From positions 1 to 64,000 of the forward strand of contig JAKZES010000019.1 of NCBI GenBank assembly GCA_022548915.1: a DNA stretch of 64,000 bases. The letters run 5' to 3'. This stretch comes from Verrucomicrobiaceae bacterium E54 (GTDB taxonomy: Bacteria; Verrucomicrobiota; Verrucomicrobiia; Verrucomicrobiales; Akkermansiaceae). This document shows positions 80 through 6,112 of this stretch, piece after piece. The position numbers were made by a program, and so were the translations under genes. The notes below the pieces were generated by a model, which did no database searches, was not told where the DNA came from, and saw only the letters and a list, made by a program, of their open reading frames with translations. How positions within the stretch are numbered: position 1 is the stretch's first letter; every line of letters starts with the position of its first letter.

Positions 80-850
80 ATGAAACTTCCCGCGACCCTC
101 CCCCTGCTGGTCGGGCTGGCATGCCCGTGCGTTCTTTCCGCTGAAGAGTCCGACGCCCACCTGCCGCGGCAGGTCCAGGTCCAGGTCGAGTTTGTGGAGT
201 TGGATCACAAGGATCTGACCAAGCTCCTCTTTCTGTCGGCGCTCGAGGTGGCCGACGCCACGCCGCTTCGCAAGACGGTGGCGGAGATGGTGAAGAAGGG
301 AGAGGCAAACGTGCTGGAGACGATGATGGTGGTGGCGCGGAGCGGCGAGAAGGCGACGAGCGAGTCGATCCGGGAGTTCGTTTATCCGACCGAGTATGAG
401 CCGCCGGATATCCCCGACGAGGTCAACGTGCCCGGCGAACCGGACGGGAAAGGAGTCTCACCGGAAGAACTCAAGTGGATGGGGATGCTGCGGACCCAGT
501 TCACGCCGACGGCCTTTGAGACTCGGAACCTGGGCGGCACGCTTGAGGTTGAGCCCGGCCTTTCCGACGACGGGCGGATCGTGGATCTCAAGTTTTCGCC
601 TGAGATCGTCTGGCACACGGGAAACACGGTCTGGGCGGAGGACAAGGATGCCCACGGCAATGTCTCAAAGGTTCAGATGCCGCAGATGTACAGCCTCCGC
701 GTGAATACGGCGATTACCTGCATCGATGGTCAGTACAATCTGGTAGCGGTACTTTCGCCCAAAGATCAGGACGGCGTAACGGACTTCACCCGCAAGGTGA
801 TGATGTTCGTGAAATGCGACGTGGTCGTTGTGAAGGAGACGGGAAAATGA
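80..850 (+). CDS. Secreted secretin-like protein, paralogue 1 of 3
   Basis: This is an uncharacterised protein of about 256 residues with an N-terminal signal peptide (MKLPATLPLLVGLACPCVLSA). Start codons are also possible at 68, 71 and 74; 80 was chosen because it gives the most compact signal peptide. Near the N-terminus is a QVQVEFVELDH motif. The C-terminal half runs FETRNLGGTLEVEP, then DGRIVDLKFSPEIV, then a strand ending in CIDGQYNLVAVLSP. That order resembles the C-terminal domain of type II/III secretins (established family knowledge), but no pore-forming N-domains precede it. It overlaps the next paralogue by ATGA and is probably translationally coupled to it. The function is unknown, and the secretin relationship is inferred from pattern only. 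Confidence 0.75.
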   Translation: MKLPATLPLLVGLACPCVLSAEESDAHLPRQVQVQVEFVELDHKDLTKLLFLSALEVADATPLRKTVAEMVKKGEANVLETMMVVARSGEKATSESIREFVYPTEYEPPDIPDEVNVPGEPDGKGVSPEELKWMGMLRTQFTPTAFETRNLGGTLEVEPGLSDDGRIVDLKFSPEIVWHTGNTVWAEDKDAHGNVSKVQMPQMYSLRVNTAITCIDGQYNLVAVLSPKDQDGVTDFTRKVMMFVKCDVVVVKETGK

Positions 851-1596
851 AGCGGTTGTTCGCGCTTCTTTCCCTCGTGCCTGTCGCGGGGATGGCATCG
901 GTCGCGGACTTCGATCCGTTTGCGCCGCCAGAGCCACCGAAAATGGTGCGGGTTCAGGTCGAGTTTGTGGAGGTGGCGCACGCGGACTACACCGAATGGA
1001 TGATGGGCAATCGGAGTGCGTCCGATGCCACGGCGTTGCGGATGAAGTTGGCCGGACTGGTCGAGCAAAACCAAGCCAAGGTCGTGGAGACGATGATGGT
1101 GGTGGTTCAGAGCGGCAAGAAGGCGAGCAGCGGGTCCAATTGTGAGTTCATTTGGCCGCTTGTCTACGAGCCGCCGAGGCTTCCCACACCCGGCCACTTC
1201 CCCCTTCCACCAGATGACATACGGAGGATTCGGCTTGGCATCCCGCTCACACCCACGGCCTTCGAAACTCGGAATCTCGGGAGTAATCTTGAGATTGTCC
1301 CAACCGTCGCGAAGGACGGGAGAACGATCTCGCTGGAATTGGCTCCAGAGCTTGGGTTTCTGGCAGGCCATGTGGCTTACCGTGATTTCATCACGCCCGA
1401 TCAGCACCGGTTTCAGCAGAGGCATCCCATCTTCATCACCCAGCGGGTGAACGTGGAACTGACCTGTCGAAGTGGGAGTTACGCGCTGGTGACGGTCCTG
1501 ACGCCGTCGGACGAGGACGGTCAGCTTGATCCGAGCAGGAAGACGATGGTTTTCGTCAGGTGCGACGTCGTCGAGGTGAAGGAGGTGTCCCCATGA
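847..1596 (+). CDS. Secreted secretin-like protein, paralogue 2 of 3
   Basis: This is a protein of about 249 residues, paralogous to both neighbours. The start at 847 lies in the ATGA overlap with the upstream stop and gives a clear signal peptide (MKRLFALLSLVPVAGMASVA). The mature N-terminus carries a DFDPFAPPEPP linker, followed by the shared VRVQVEFVEVAHADY motif. A conserved ETMMVVVQSGKKA segment follows, then FETRNLGSNLEIVPT and a final strand with TCRSGSYALVTVLTP. It ends in a second ATGA overlap with paralogue 3, so the three genes form one operon. Function unknown. The secretin-like C-terminal core suggests an envelope location, which is inference. Confidence 0.75.
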   Translation: MKRLFALLSLVPVAGMASVADFDPFAPPEPPKMVRVQVEFVEVAHADYTEWMMGNRSASDATALRMKLAGLVEQNQAKVVETMMVVVQSGKKASSGSNCEFIWPLVYEPPRLPTPGHFPLPPDDIRRIRLGIPLTPTAFETRNLGSNLEIVPTVAKDGRTISLELAPELGFLAGHVAYRDFITPDQHRFQQRHPIFITQRVNVELTCRSGSYALVTVLTPSDEDGQLDPSRKTMVFVRCDVVEVKEVSP

Positions 1597-2444
1597 AGGG
1601 GCTGTTGGGAGCGTCACTTCTGGCCTTGGTCGGAGGTCTGTTGGCCGAGGAAGGTGTGGATCCCTTCGCGGCGTCCGATCCTTTTGCAACCGAGGGTGAT
1701 TTTGATCCGTTCGCATCGAAGCAAGATTTTGATCCGTTTGCACCACCTCCACCTCCCGGTCCTCCGGATCCTTCCAATCCAGATCGGGATCTTCCCAAAA
1801 TCATCCGGGTTCAGGTCGAGTTCGTGGAAGTGGCACACTCGGACTACATCGAATTGATGGCGGGGAACGCCGACACCTCGGATGCGGCCGAGCTGCGGAA
1901 GAAGCTCGCAGGAATGGTCGAGGTCGACCGGGCCGAGGTGGTGGAGACGATGATGGTGGTTTGCCGCAGTGGTGAGAGGGCGACCGCGGAGTCGATCCGG
2001 GAGTTCATTTATCCGACGGAGTATGAGCCGCCGGGCTATGAACCACCTCCACTGCCGCCAGAATGGATTCGGAGAATGAACAATCTCGCTCGACTGCGTC
2101 TTCCGACCGCGCACACCGCTTTTGAAACCCGGAACGCCGGATCTACCTTCGATATTGCCCCGAATCTCGGCATCAATGGGAGGATCATCGACCTTCAGCT
2201 TGCTCCCGAGATCGTCATGCTGACGGGCTACGAGGTGTACGCCGAGTTCGAGGCGCTGGGCGGCCATGTGCATCAGGACAAGTGGCCGGTTTTCACCACC
2301 CAACGAACCAACAACTCGCTGACCTGCATCGATGGTCAGTATGTGCTCGCCAGCGTCCTGACTTCATCGGACGAGGAGGGGGAGATCGACCCGAGCCGCA
2401 AGATCCTGGTCCTCGTGAAGTGCGACGTGCTGGTGGTGAAGTGA
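1593..2444 (+). CDS. Secreted secretin-like protein, paralogue 3 of 3
   Basis: The start at 1593 gives a signal peptide (MKGLLGASLLALVGGLLA) and a 283-residue protein. It differs from its paralogues by an expanded N-terminal linker holding four DPFA units (DPFAASDPFA, then two DFDPFA copies) followed by a proline run. The rest matches the family: IRVQVEFVEVAHSDY, ETMMVVCRSGERATAESIRE, FETRNAGSTFDIAPN, GRIIDLQLAPEIV and CIDGQYVLASVLT. It is the last gene of the three-gene operon and converges on the ligase gene 19 bp downstream. The repeated DPFA units look like slippage-prone linker growth. Function unknown. Confidence 0.75.
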   Translation: MKGLLGASLLALVGGLLAEEGVDPFAASDPFATEGDFDPFASKQDFDPFAPPPPPGPPDPSNPDRDLPKIIRVQVEFVEVAHSDYIELMAGNADTSDAAELRKKLAGMVEVDRAEVVETMMVVCRSGERATAESIREFIYPTEYEPPGYEPPPLPPEWIRRMNNLARLRLPTAHTAFETRNAGSTFDIAPNLGINGRIIDLQLAPEIVMLTGYEVYAEFEALGGHVHQDKWPVFTTQRTNNSLTCIDGQYVLASVLTSSDEEGEIDPSRKILVLVKCDVLVVK

Positions 2445-2463: not shown

Positions 2464-5295
2464 CTATCCGAGCAATGCTTTTGCCGAGCGCAGGGTGTCG
2501 ATGTCGGCGAGGGTCTTGTCGCGGCGGATGGCCTTGATTCGGGGGAAGCGCAGAGCGAGGCCCGAGTCGTGGCGCTTGGAGGGCTGGATGGAGTCGAAGG
2601 CGATCTCGAGGACGAGGTTGGGCTCGACGAGATGCTTGCGGCGCTTCTTCTCGAGAGTGTGCTTCTGGAAGTGGTCGGTGAGTTCCTCGATCTCAAGGTC
2701 GGTGAGGCCGCTGTAGGCCTTGCCGATGATGCGCAGGGTGTCGCTGTCCTCGTCGCGCACGGCGAAGGTGTAGTCGCTGAGAAGTTCGGCGCGTTTGCCG
2801 TGGCCCTGCTCGGCGGCGACAACGACGCAGTCGAGGGTGGGCATGACGCCCTTGAGCTTGAGCCAGGCCATGCCGCGGCGGCCGGGGAGGTAGGGGGAAT
2901 CGGGTTGCTTGGAGATGAGGCCTTCATGGCCGTCGGCGAGGGCCTGCTTGAAGGCGGTCTCGAGGGTGTGGATGGAATCGGCGTGGATCAGGGGAATGGG
3001 GGTGATGCGGCGCTCCCGTCGCCCTTTCAGGGCTCCTGAATCGAGCTCGCTGGGGGGACCCAGGGTTGCACCCTGGGCTGTCGACCGTCGCCCCGTTGGG
3101 GCTCCCGAGGTGGACGAGGTGTCGGGGAGTGTTGGGGCTTCCGGGGTGGATGGATTGAGCAGGGCTTCGAGGTGACGCCGGCGCTGGGTTAGGGGGTGGT
3201 CGAGGAGGGTGGAGCCGTTGTGGAGCAGGATGTCGAAGGCGATGAAGTGAACGGGGGGAAGGTCGGACTCGGAGAAGAGGTCGGTCTGCGCGGTGTTGAG
3301 CCGGCCGAGGCGTTTCTGGAGGTCGAAGAAGGTGAGGCGCCGGCCCTCGGCGTGGGCGATGATCTCCCCGTCGAGGATGAAGTCGCCGGGGATCGCCCGC
3401 GCGGCTTCGAGGAGCTCGGGAAACTGGCGGTCGATGGGCTTGAGGTCGCGTGAGTAGAGTCCGACACGGTCGCCGGATTTGTGGAGCTGGCTACGGATGC
3501 CGTCGTACTTCGGTTCCAGCCAGAGGGAGCGGGGAGCGGGGAGCGGGGAGCGGGGAGCGTCCGTGGAGTGCCTGGTGAATATGGTGGCGGCGGATTCGCC
3601 CGGGGAGGCGAGCATGACCTTGACCGGGACGAAGGGATGAAGAGCGGCCCGGTCGAGCAGGCCATCCCGGGCAAGTTCGGCGGTTTCGCCGAGATCCCCG
3701 GTGAGCATGTGGGCGCGGCGCAACGCTTTCGGGTCAGCGTCGAAGGCAACGGTCAGGGCGTCCTCGACGAGGCCTTCCTTGAGGCCGATGCGGAGGTCAC
3801 CGGTGAGGAGCTTGACCAGCGTTTCGCCCTCGGCGGGGTGGAGGGTGCGGAGACGGCCGCCGAGAGCCTCGATGCGGCCGATCGAGCTTCCGCTTCCGGC
3901 AAGTTCACGGAAGAAGCCGAGAATTTCCGGGAGATCGACCGGGGAGGGTTGAAGGGGGAGTTCCTCGAGAAGGAGCCGGGCGGTGCGGGCGGCGTCGTTC
4001 TGGGTGGTTGAGATCTCACGGTAGCGGATTTCCCGGGCACCGGGGAGTGAGAGCAAGGCCCGGCGCAGGGTGGCGGTGCCGGTTTGGAGCTGCCCGTCGC
4101 GGCGGGGAAGTGCCCGACCGGTGAGCCAGGTGGTGGCAGTGGCGAGCGGGACACCGGGCCTCCGGAGGTAGTCGGCCAGCAGCTCGATCTTGCGGGTGCG
4201 GCGCTGGGTTTCGCCGACGAGCCGACAGAGGTCGGTGAAATCGGCGAAGGGGCAGGATGGCCGGCGATGGCGGTCCCTGGCCGGAGAACCCGGTTCCTGA
4301 GGGCGTCCGCAGACCTGGAGTTCGAGTTGGTCGTTGCCCATGGCCGACCACGCCTCGATCCCGCGCTGGCGGAGTTCGGCGGCAAATTCCCGGGCGTAGC
4401 CATGCACCGTGAGCACGCGTTTCGGTTGGACGCGCCGGACGCACTCCAGCAGGCCGGGGTGGTCGGCGTGGTCGGAAAGCGCGATGGCTTCGTCGGTGCG
4501 GTAACGGTAATTGGCGCCCGGGGTGAGTGCCCAGCCGCTGAGCATGGCAATGCGGCGGTTGCGGATCGATCGGAGCAGTTTCGAGCGGACCGCGTTCGGC
4601 GGTGCGATCACCGCGGTTCCGGGTGGAACCGTGCCTTCGAGAAGGGCGGGCTCGGGGACGGTATCGAGGCCGGCCGCGCGGCAGGCCTCGGTCATCTCGG
4701 CGACCTTGGGGTGGAGCACGGCGGGGATGCCGTGCTCATGGATCAGTGCAAGGGCCTCCTGGGCCTTGCCGAGCGAGTAGCCGAGAAGCACGGGGACCTC
4801 GTCGTCGTGGAAGGCGTTGTCGATGAAGCGCAGGACCTCGGCCTCGATCTCGAGCGGAGAAGGAAAGGTGAATTTCGGCAGGGCGAAGGTGGTTTCGAGG
4901 ACCAGCAGGTCGGCCTGACGGAAGGCCATTTCCTCGGCGGCACGGCCGCGGCGGACCTTGAAGTCGCCGGTGTAGAGCAGCGTGGCACCGTCATCGAGGC
5001 GGGTGACGTGGATCATCGCCGAGCCGAAGATGTGCCCGGCCGGGAGCAGTTGGACGCGATGCCCGTTGAGCTCGTGCGTCGAGTGCCAGGCGAGCGGGAG
5101 CAGGCGTTTCTCGGCGAGCTTGTAGCGGGCCCGGACGAGGGCGGCGGTGGTCGCCGAGCAGATCGCGGTCTGGTGGCGGGCGAAATGGTCGGCGTGGGCA
5201 TGGGAGACAAAGGCGAGCGGCTTGGCATCCCAGGGGTCGAGCCACAAGTCCGCCTCGGGAAGGTGGAGGCCGCGGTGGAATTTGACGGGGATCAC
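2464..5295 (-). CDS. Fused DNA exonuclease (metallo-beta-lactamase) and ATP-dependent DNA ligase
   Basis: This 943-residue protein joins two DNA-repair enzymes that are usually encoded by separate neighbouring genes (ligase-associated exonuclease plus cisplatin-response-type ATP-dependent ligase). Residues 1 to about 330 are a metallo-beta-lactamase/beta-CASP-like exonuclease with the metal motif HAHADH at 32-37. Residues from about 345 onward are the ligase, with the nucleotidyl-accepting lysine in EPKYDGIRS at position 596 and an OB-fold-like C-terminus. The GTG start at 5295 was chosen because a GGAAG lies just upstream and the exonuclease fold begins there; the open frame continues upstream only through a repeat element. 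Two repeat-derived insertions lie inside the ligase half, described separately. The family is thought to act in double-strand end processing and repair. Confidence 0.88.
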   Translation of the reverse strand: MIPVKFHRGLHLPEADLWLDPWDAKPLAFVSHAHADHFARHQTAICSATTAALVRARYKLAEKRLLPLAWHSTHELNGHRVQLLPAGHIFGSAMIHVTRLDDGATLLYTGDFKVRRGRAAEEMAFRQADLLVLETTFALPKFTFPSPLEIEAEVLRFIDNAFHDDEVPVLLGYSLGKAQEALALIHEHGIPAVLHPKVAEMTEACRAAGLDTVPEPALLEGTVPPGTAVIAPPNAVRSKLLRSIRNRRIAMLSGWALTPGANYRYRTDEAIALSDHADHPGLLECVRRVQPKRVLTVHGYAREFAAELRQRGIEAWSAMGNDQLELQVCGRPQEPGSPARDRHRRPSCPFADFTDLCRLVGETQRRTRKIELLADYLRRPGVPLATATTWLTGRALPRRDGQLQTGTATLRRALLSLPGAREIRYREISTTQNDAARTARLLLEELPLQPSPVDLPEILGFFRELAGSGSSIGRIEALGGRLRTLHPAEGETLVKLLTGDLRIGLKEGLVEDALTVAFDADPKALRRAHMLTGDLGETAELARDGLLDRAALHPFVPVKVMLASPGESAATIFTRHSTDAPRSPLPAPRSLWLEPKYDGIRSQLHKSGDRVGLYSRDLKPIDRQFPELLEAARAIPGDFILDGEIIAHAEGRRLTFFDLQKRLGRLNTAQTDLFSESDLPPVHFIAFDILLHNGSTLLDHPLTQRRRHLEALLNPSTPEAPTLPDTSSTSGAPTGRRSTAQGATLGPPSELDSGALKGRRERRITPIPLIHADSIHTLETAFKQALADGHEGLISKQPDSPYLPGRRGMAWLKLKGVMPTLDCVVVAAEQGHGKRAELLSDYTFAVRDEDSDTLRIIGKAYSGLTDLEIEELTDHFQKHTLEKKRRKHLVEPNLVLEIAFDSIQPSKRHDSGLALRFPRIKAIRRDKTLADIDTLRSAKALLG
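3009..3110. repeat. Palindromic repeat element embedded in frame in the ligase gene
   Basis: Three hairpins lie close together: GCCCTTTCAGGGC (3021-3033), CCCAGGGTTGCACCCTGGG (3059-3077) and GCCCCGTTGGGGC (3090-3102). Together they look like an intergenic palindromic element, yet they are read through as low-complexity, Pro/Gly/Ser/Arg-rich sequence between two conserved ligase blocks. The flanking protein text (an arginine-rich helix ending near EALLNPS, and PLIHADSIHTLETA) is normal for the family, so the insert is probably a surface loop. Identity as a mobile repeat is inference. Confidence 0.55.
3524..3558. repeat. Five-unit 7-bp tandem repeat inside the ligase gene
   Basis: The unit GGGGAGC occurs four times perfectly (3531-3558), preceded by one copy with a single mismatch. 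It is translated as a PLPAPRS-type linker about 14 bp from the catalytic KYDG codons. Because 7 is not a multiple of 3, gain or loss of one unit would shift the frame and remove most of the ligase domain. Confidence 0.8.
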
Positions 5296-5319
5296 GGGAT
5301 CTTCCGGATGGTTCGAAGC

Positions 5320-5436
5320 CCAAGTTCCAAGTGAGAAGTTCCAAGTGCCAAGCGAAGTGCGCCTGCGGCGGTCAAACGGGGGCGCGACAGCGTCGCGCGC
5401 TCCAGTTGGAACTTGGTCCTTGGCCCTTGGAACTTC
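5320..5436. repeat. Dispersed CTTGGAACTT inverted-arm element, copy A
   Basis: The left arm carries AAGTTCCAAG repeats (5321-5350) and the right arm carries their inverse CTTGGAACTT (5405-5436). The arms enclose a GC-rich inner hairpin (GCGCGACAGCGTCGCGC). The element lies between the SDR gene and the exonuclease-ligase gene, and its right end carries the TGA stop of the SDR gene. Related copies occur near 24.8, 29.8, 34.1 and 52.0 kb. Confidence 0.7.
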
Positions 5437-6112
5437 ACGCGACCGTGAGCGGCTGGCCGTTGTGTTTGGCGGTGAGCGACTGGAGGAAGGGGATGGCGGT
5501 CTTGGCCCATTGCTTGGCGTCCGGATAGCCGGAGGACTCGGCACCGAAGCAGGTGCGGAGCATGTCGGTGTCGATGATGCCGGGATTGAGCGGGATCGCG
5601 GCGAGGCCGGGGGGGAGTTCCTGGGCGAGGGCCTGCATCAAGCCTTCGATGCCCCATTTGGAACAACAATAGGGAGCCACCTCGGGGGAGGTGGAACGGC
5701 CCCAGCCGGAGGAGAGGGCGACGACGATGCCGGATCCGCGCTGGATCATGGCGGGAAGTGCCGCGCGGATCAGGTGGTGGACCCCGTTGAGGTTCACCGC
5801 CGTGAGCCGGGCGAATTCCTCGGGCGGGATCTCCCAGAGGGGGGCGGGGGGATTGATGATGGCGGCATTGGCGACGAGCAGGTCGGGCGGCCCGTGGAGG
5901 GCGATGGCTTCGTCGGTGAAGCGTTCCACGGCGGCGCAGTCCGTGACGTCGCATTCCCGGACGAGGTGGGGGTCGCCGAGGTCGGTGGTGAGGGCGTCGA
6001 GCGCGTGGGCGGAGGTGCCGCAGCCGCTGACCGCCCAGCCGTCCTTGGCGAAGCCGAGGGCGAGTTCGCGGCCGAGTCCGCGGGTGGCGCCGGTGAGAAG
6101 CAGGTGTTTCAT
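5435..6112 (-). CDS. Short-chain dehydrogenase/reductase
   Basis: This is a 225-residue classical SDR, a cytosolic NAD(P)-dependent oxidoreductase of unknown substrate. The nucleotide-binding glycine motif TGATRGLG is at residues 7-14, and NAA follows strand 4 near 82. The catalytic set is Ser134/135, Tyr148 and Lys152 (YCCSK). The length fits a single Rossmann domain of this family. It is encoded upstream of the exonuclease-ligase on the same strand, with a repeat element between them, so co-transcription is uncertain. The specific reaction cannot be told from sequence. Confidence 0.85.
   Translation of the reverse strand: MKHLLLTGATRGLGRELALGFAKDGWAVSGCGTSAHALDALTTDLGDPHLVRECDVTDCAAVERFTDEAIALHGPPDLLVANAAIINPPAPLWEIPPEEFARLTAVNLNGVHHLIRAALPAMIQRGSGIVVALSSGWGRSTSPEVAPYCCSKWGIEGLMQALAQELPPGLAAIPLNPGIIDTDMLRTCFGAESSGYPDAKQWAKTAIPFLQSLTAKHNGQPLTVA

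Follow-up and report, generated by a model that had tools for sequence, protein, structure and literature searches.

Secretins are outer-membrane channels, and the first genes of one contig of Verrucomicrobiaceae bacterium E54 raise the question of what a secretin core might be used for when the parts that meet the membrane are missing. The window, by which we mean the whole stretch of DNA that was analysed (64,000 nucleotides; GenBank assembly GCA_022548915.1, JAKZES010000019.1), is contig C110 of a 5.9-Mb genome, counted from contig base 1. It opens with three tandem genes on the forward strand: P0001 (256 aa, positions 80-850), an A-type mini-secretin-like protein, followed by P0002 (249 aa, 847-1596) and P0003 (283 aa, 1593-2444), two paralogues in second position that fall in one clade. 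Adjacent genes overlap by 4 bases each, at 847-850 and 1593-1596. The three proteins align over most of their length, P0001 sharing 42% identity with P0002 and 49% with P0003, and the latter two 57% with each other; all three have a signal-peptide-like start and the blocks VQVEFVE, FETRN, GR..(I)(D/S)L..PE and G-x-Y. A sequence-only reading of this DNA had described three coupled paralogues with a signal peptide, the VQVEFVE block and C-terminal blocks in the order of a secretin domain, a description that these frames bear out. We refer to them and their relatives as minis, and the explanation that we regard as the best overall, at slightly less than even probability, is that they would be exported, PilQ-derived envelope modules that do not form channels.

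Relationship to PilQ and the secretin fold

All three proteins match the NCBIfam Amuc_1098 family (NF042912; E = 3e-31, 4e-19 and 8e-22, or 108, 68 and 77 bits, for P0001, P0002 and P0003), in partial alignments over the C-terminal part of the profile that stay under its curated cut-off of 750 bits. The Pfam Secretin family (PF00263) scored below its gathering cut-off of 27.5 bits for P0001 (19.3 bits) and P0002 (21.6 bits) and gave no match for P0003 in the Pfam search; the relative L088 passes the cut-off with 39.1 bits. Full-length members of the Amuc_1098 family are encoded on two further contigs of the same genome, C111 (878 aa, 1176 bits) and C200 (816 aa, 1013 bits), and a proteome study of Akkermansia ranks Amuc_1098, a PilQ, first in abundance among the outer-membrane proteins (PMC4960237). 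The window's proteins have in common with this type of PilQ the C-terminal secretin core (FETRN, RSGEKA and YPTEYEPP blocks) and, in P0002 and P0003, the DPF motif of the linker. They differ in lacking its TPR, N domains, lip and amphipathic helical loop (AHL), in measuring 250-280 aa rather than 800-900, and in lying as tandem genes on another contig.

For comparison we used 48 minis and 48 full-length secretins. The former are the window's three plus 45 proteins chosen from other loci, without truncated and double-domain proteins, some extra copies, and those minis of the genus genomes that lie outside the named-genome scan, which used the best 80 of 250 relatives. The latter are 38 proteins of more than 780 aa and ten of a second kind, five shorter ones cut at contig ends or starts having been dropped. 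A model of P0001 built from the 48 aligned minis reached a mean pLDDT of 89.4 and a pTM of 0.80. When it was compared with solved structures by Foldseek, 24 of 24 matches at E <= 0.001 were secretins, with high rmsd in the full-length superpositions of chains that differ in size. By VIA-align 2 the first 28 rows were all secretins (Z 8.8-13.5, 129-154 residues aligned) and the next row was an unrelated protein at Z 4.3. The fold of the P0001 model was in these comparisons that of a secretin and not an unrelated one, in line with the secretin-like nature first proposed. A profile search of the 48 minis against the sequences of solved structures returned nothing significant, its one match being RcpA at E 0.079, so that the structural link rests on the fold comparison together with the homology to PilQ.

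The best VIA match was pIV of the filamentous phage f1 (PDB 7ofh; Z 13.5, rmsd 2.4 over 129 residues), which has an inner and an outer sheet as in the P0001 model but is described as a channel-forming protein that possesses the domains N0 and N3 as well as a lip region (PMC8563730). RcpA, the Tad secretin with a single N domain (PDB 8odn), is likewise a reduced secretin and matches the P0001 model at Z 12.0; unlike the minis, it is reported to keep the AHL, outer barrel and S domain, to bind a pilotin and to form C13 and C14 channels (PMC10499894).

In a tree of 208 core columns, the 48 minis are set apart by a single branch from 30 full-length secretins, among which both kinds of PilQ are represented; the split has support of 100/100 and is recovered in 100% of 200 bootstrap trees. 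This branch measures 1.33 changes per column, and several minis are long-branched. The tree, being unrooted, is consistent with a single origin of the minis rather than proof of it. That the window's proteins represent a PilQ-derived secretin core we consider almost certain.

A signal-peptide-like start was detected by a crude rule in 44 of the 48 minis. A lipobox, searched with an equally crude pattern, occurs in two of the 48 and in none of P0001-P0003. The idea that the three might be pilotins finds no support, given the missing lipobox pattern and the secretin fold; the leading structural matches of the P0001 model were all secretins, with no pilotin among those listed. The window's proteins may be located at the surface, as the sequence-only reading also proposed, and the start that resembles an export signal is what was seen.

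Lost and retained parts of the core

The apical/beta-lip region and the AHL are absent from all 48 aligned minis. Between FVE and RSGEK the minis have 38-52 residues (median 45) and the full-length secretins 121-145 (median 138), 48 against 48 without overlap; the window's proteins have 45-46 (46 in P0001). We read this first lost stretch as the apical region from its place in the alignment. In secretins of the type II secretion system, the apical region is described as lying between the motifs [QN]W and [AVMG]LI[VILMF] (PMC10550240), and it holds the beta-lip, the major membrane-spanning region. P0001 keeps core strand a (residues 30-42, the VQVEFVE block; positions 167-205, forward strand), and according to the model and the alignment this strand is followed, at the apical/beta-lip site, by a short helical stretch (residues 43-75; 206-304, forward strand). 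The second loss lies between the DG(Q)Y block and RK, a spacing of 15-22 residues in the 48 minis, 21 in the window's proteins, and 43 in every one of the 48 full-length secretins. In the alignment a short loop of P0001 (residues 226-237; 755-790, forward strand) occupies the site at which the C111 PilQ of the same genome has the AHL VPILGDIPILGRLF. The LGdIPxLG-type AHL pattern (VPxLGdIPxLG) was found in no mini listed, the strict pattern also missing some full-length secretins. The AHL is reported from all structurally characterised secretins and thought to initiate membrane contact (PMC6532946).

Periplasmic N domains are absent from P0001-P0003. A segment resembling an N domain is, in our reading of the sequences, kept ahead of the mini core in L079, L080, L082, L084 and L088, the last of which carries two mini cores behind it. 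Because some relatives retain such a segment, the membrane parts were probably lost first and the N domains later. The description of the three proteins as lacking the N0-N3 domains and the usual pore length holds, the N domains being absent and the lip and AHL stretches shortened.

Other parts of the core have been retained. By our assignment from sequence, both gate loops are kept: the YEPP..FETRN spacing is 18-49 residues in minis and 21-40 in full-length secretins, and the PEIV..MP spacing, read as gate 2, is 24-28 and 33-54. Conservation is lowest in the gate 1 segment (1.28 bits). It reaches 2.45 and 2.61 bits in edge strands a and d, where by our reading secretin subunits would join, against a family mean of 2.14. 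Judged from the model together with the alignment, one of the four strands of the outer sheet appears to be missing in the minis.

Measured against the orthologues in the related genome G003, dN/dS is 0.13 for P0001 and 0.29 for P0003; with H. rosea as the reference, P0001 gives 0.19. Nine further pairs were tested and lie at 0.11-0.41, apart from one at 0.78, whose two sequences are almost identical and differ by few changes; several pairs approach saturation at synonymous sites. Purifying selection acts on P0001 and P0003. One might take the minis for decaying fragments of duplicated pilQ genes, as they are shorter than PilQ and a few relatives look broken (such as a 165-aa frame with a stop in G016), but the frames are open, selection on P0001 and P0003 is at the values just given, and the minis form one group across at least four families with the same loss pattern throughout, which makes decay hardly credible. 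For the window's genes a pseudogene reading was ruled out by the selection and length data. The word "degenerate" in the sequence-only reading is misleading for one conserved group that lacks the same two elements in 48 of 48 members and includes proteins under purifying selection.

Among 18 genomes of the window's genus, 15 carry 1-13 minis in a hand count of open frames of about 200-620 aa, one per frame, which omits a full-length-type gene fragment at a contig end (G012) and the broken frame of G016; G013 has full-length genes only. In the family sample minis occur in at least 9 of 16 genera among the matches listed, and no mini is among the matches listed for genus g3, taken as Akkermansia. 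In the class sample 134 of 286 genomes match at E <= 1e-15, with minis in families f1, f2, f4 and f41 among the matches listed. Two records titled "Akkermansia muciniphila" (CAMCYK010000002.1 and CAMCYK010000053.1, behind loci L061 and L067) correspond to contigs C2 and C53 of G007, which belongs to the window's genus and not to g3, and their public name looks wrong. A word search of one library of open-access papers found no earlier description of such proteins.

Pairs, operon partners and the DPF motif

A pairing tree of 69 mini domains from a chosen part of the loci contains an A clade of 30 rows and a B clade of 16. Where the two kinds meet as separate genes, A comes first at 12 of 12 junctions in nine genomes, the second record of one genome (L061) being left out. 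In Haloferula sp. BvORR071 an A domain and then a B domain make up one protein of 490 aa, and in two further double-domain lineages (L051/L057 and L088/L098) the first and second domains fall in different clades. Another pair is found in the window, G003 and H. rosea, where a P0001-type gene is followed by a P0003-type one; P0002 of the window is one more gene of the second kind. When genes that stand apart in some genomes are fused in others, this is commonly taken as evidence for physical partnership, and it is mainly because of such fusions that heteromers are proposed; from the sequences, we put the chance that the minis are heteromeric at even. The contig begins 79 bases ahead of P0001, and in G003 the array starts with the P0001 orthologue; a further copy may lie upstream of P0001, beyond the contig end. 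On the other side of the trio follows an open reading frame (ORF) on the reverse strand (2464-5544, 1026 aa), whose residues 90-398 resemble a ligase-associated exonuclease (TIGR04122), with an ATP-dependent DNA ligase part at about residues 434-1025; the two parts are separate NCBIfam models, and the ORF scores under the equivalog cut-offs of both.

Clustering of the ORFs that neighbour mini loci gave three recurrent partners. One is a secreted, remotely serpin-like family, seen at L040, L042, L046, L048, L049, L062, L069 and L072, mostly of 352-366 aa and comprising in all 14 ORFs at 12 loci, or ten regions, two BvORR071 regions being present twice. The genus has nine serpin-like genes in 7 of 18 genomes, seven of them beside minis and the other two in G008 and in G013, which has no minis. 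The serpin assignment is weak. Six of seven members stay below the Pfam serpin cut-off, with a best E of 0.0012, and no match was seen for the seventh; the family had no match among the sequences of solved structures, and hhalign against five true serpins gave E 0.0046 and a probability of 7.6%. Two relatives pass the Pfam cut-off, one of G084 (30.8 bits), beside a mini, and one of G027 (27.4 bits). Inhibitory serpins have small residues at certain positions of the reactive loop, at which the serpin-like family has bulky charged ones, and these residues speak against classical inhibition.

The partner that we call VIT-VWA-SLBB-TPR measures 1050-1130 aa and stands at nine loci, or eight regions, L044 and L067 being the same. 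In the L070 protein, Pfam places VIT above its cut-off and SLBB and TPR below theirs, and the VWA part is our own reading of the sequence. Across 60 genomes of the family, 11 have a match at E <= 1e-30, directly beside minis in seven (G001, G024, G025, G028, G030, G039, the query's own genome, and G064); a second copy in G024 and the match in G037 show no mini adjacency among the matches listed, and three distant matches are in g3. The remaining partner is a histidine kinase with an OmpR-type regulator at six loci in five genomes (L051, L052, L057, L086, L087 and L091), a pair that was tested against Pfam for L057 only and whose kinase is split into two ORFs in L091. This pair follows the mini genes, some of which are double-domain. 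Overlaps of 4 bases join minis to serpin-like genes at L040, L042, L046, L048 and L062, and to VIT-VWA-SLBB genes at L044, L047 and L070. As for the full-length gene of contig C111 (G000), two ORFs lie directly upstream of it (L009, 323-2414, forward strand), which we take to resemble inner-membrane pilus-assembly proteins of the Amuc_1100 neighbourhood.

The third protein of the window had been singled out for its expanded DPFA repeats, and indeed P0003 has four copies in its linker (residues 23-26, 29-32, 38-41 and 47-50; positions 1659-1742, forward strand), where P0002 has one (913-924, forward strand) and P0001 has none. DPF stands in the linker of all 48 full-length PilQ proteins (38 + 10) and of 3 of 3 g3 genes. 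It stands in the linker of 0 of 18 full-length PilQ-type genes from outside the window's order, one of which has a DPF in a strand-like segment; in this sample (L159-L178) linker DPF is confined to the window's order and near relatives. The motif precedes the core in 14 of 48 minis and is found in 9 of 9 VIT-VWA-SLBB proteins, two of which are the same gene. The latter hold 15 DPF in 9,813 aa against 1.4 expected from background, a Poisson value of 3e-11 that ignores shared ancestry and linker composition. Exported proteins at large gave no indication of enrichment in DPF, which occurs in 16 of 267 ORFs with a signal-like start and in 28 of 474 from the background; the latter set excludes minis and the VIT-VWA-SLBB cluster, but spurious ORFs and the serpin-like family are part of it. 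In eight of ten complete serpin-like sequences, two of these eight being near-copies, a [DE]PF[A/G] lies between a hinge-like strand and a serpin-like C-terminal signature, at the place of the serpin reactive loop.

DPF can be a docking motif, a cleavage site or a sign of shared ancestry in PilQ-derived linkers; shared ancestry is the only simple account for the minis and does not cover the two unrelated partner families. A bolder picture, which we hold to be quite improbable, is that the PilQ secretin core has given rise in Verrucomicrobiota to hetero-oligomers that are not channels and that make up a new envelope system, in which DPF[A/G] of PilQ, some minis and VIT-VWA-SLBB would be a common docking or cleavage site and the serpin-like [DE]PF[A/G] a bait or mimic for the shared receptor or protease.

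Proposed non-channel modules and the alternatives

The reading of the minis as exported non-channel modules starts from what was computed, namely the secretin fold, the common descent with PilQ, the two losses, the selection on P0001 and P0003, and the recurrent ordered pairs or fusions seen at some loci. The C-terminal secretin domain of an Amuc_1098-type PilQ would have been deprived of its apical/beta-lip region and AHL and, in the window's lineage, of the periplasmic N domains as well. Without lip and AHL it could not build an outer-membrane channel, and that the minis are no such channel we judge very probable; because lip, AHL and N domains were tested and found absent, they are not to be filed as secretin channels. 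Of the earlier interpretation, the secretin-like protein without N domains and pore length stands, "degenerate" misleads, and the pilotin lacks support. The double-sheet core, including the edge strands VQVEFVE (a) and RKVMVFVK (d), would be kept and used to oligomerise, and two kinds would give hetero-oligomers (A with B, or P0001 with the P0002/P0003 type) in the periplasm or at the inner face of the outer membrane. Their role may be that of an accessory or scaffold module of the envelope, probably connected with the type IV pilus machine or with operon partners, the linker that carries DPF providing part of the connection. Such an accessory module linked to pili or partners is a tentative proposal, location, stoichiometry and the pilus link being its weakest steps.

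Several observations weigh against this reading. Three other core strands are more conserved (2.85-3.16 bits) than edge strands a and d, support for the A and B clades is modest (SH-aLRT 85 each), and at least nine loci have a single mini (L048, L049, L058, L062, L071, L075, L078, L083 and L087). The model of the natural two-domain protein was too poor for an interface (pLDDT 52.6, 3-sequence alignment) and was left unused. Selection on P0002 was measured against its paralogue P0003 only (dN/dS 0.29). The window's trio adjoins the DNA-ligase gene on the opposite strand and not pilus genes, and neither a serpin-like nor a VIT-VWA-SLBB partner was found in its genome or in G003, so that no partner is obligatory. 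In the family sample 135 of 145 genomes match the Amuc_1098 profile, mostly through full-length genes among the matches listed, and for that reason the co-occurrence of minis with PilQ proves nothing.

These points leave room for other functions of the same core. The minis could be secretins reduced to a minimum that still make a pore in the outer membrane, either alone or as heteromers, and whose short core sheet crosses the membrane; the P0001 fold matches secretin channels, and the core double sheet and, by our assignment, both gate loops are kept. What makes such a pore improbable is the loss in all 48 aligned minis of the lip and the AHL, to which contact with the membrane is attributed (PMC6532946), and the apparent lack of one outer-sheet strand. 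They could also act directly on full-length PilQ, by capping or plugging it or by joining its ring as modifiers. With two full-length PilQ genes in the genome, core strands and partly the linker motif in common, and single minis that have no mini partner, this is conceivable, but minis and full-length genes lie on different contigs (C110 against C111 and C200), the ordered A-B pairs and fusions point to mini-mini partners, and the minis have diverged strongly from PilQ in the core, as the long branch between them shows; we think it rather unlikely.

Less far from our preference, though still unlikely, is a role in sensing or binding, in the periplasm or outside the cell, with the secretin sheet as no more than a stable scaffold and the response left to the partners. 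Such a role fits the proteins that recur beside minis, namely the kinase with the OmpR-type regulator (six loci, five genomes), VIT-VWA-SLBB (nine loci, or eight regions) and the serpin-like family, and it fits the low conservation of gate 1; against it stand the absence of an identified ligand or binding site and of any such partner beside the window's trio. We keep the non-channel envelope module as our preferred explanation. In genome annotation, the minis should not be labelled as channels of secretion systems, nor as fragments of genes. If the explanation is true, a secretin core can be exapted as a non-channel module, the minis would be natural material with which to separate the elements needed for oligomerisation from those needed for membrane insertion, and several uncharacterised envelope proteins of Verrucomicrobiota would be tied into testable operons.

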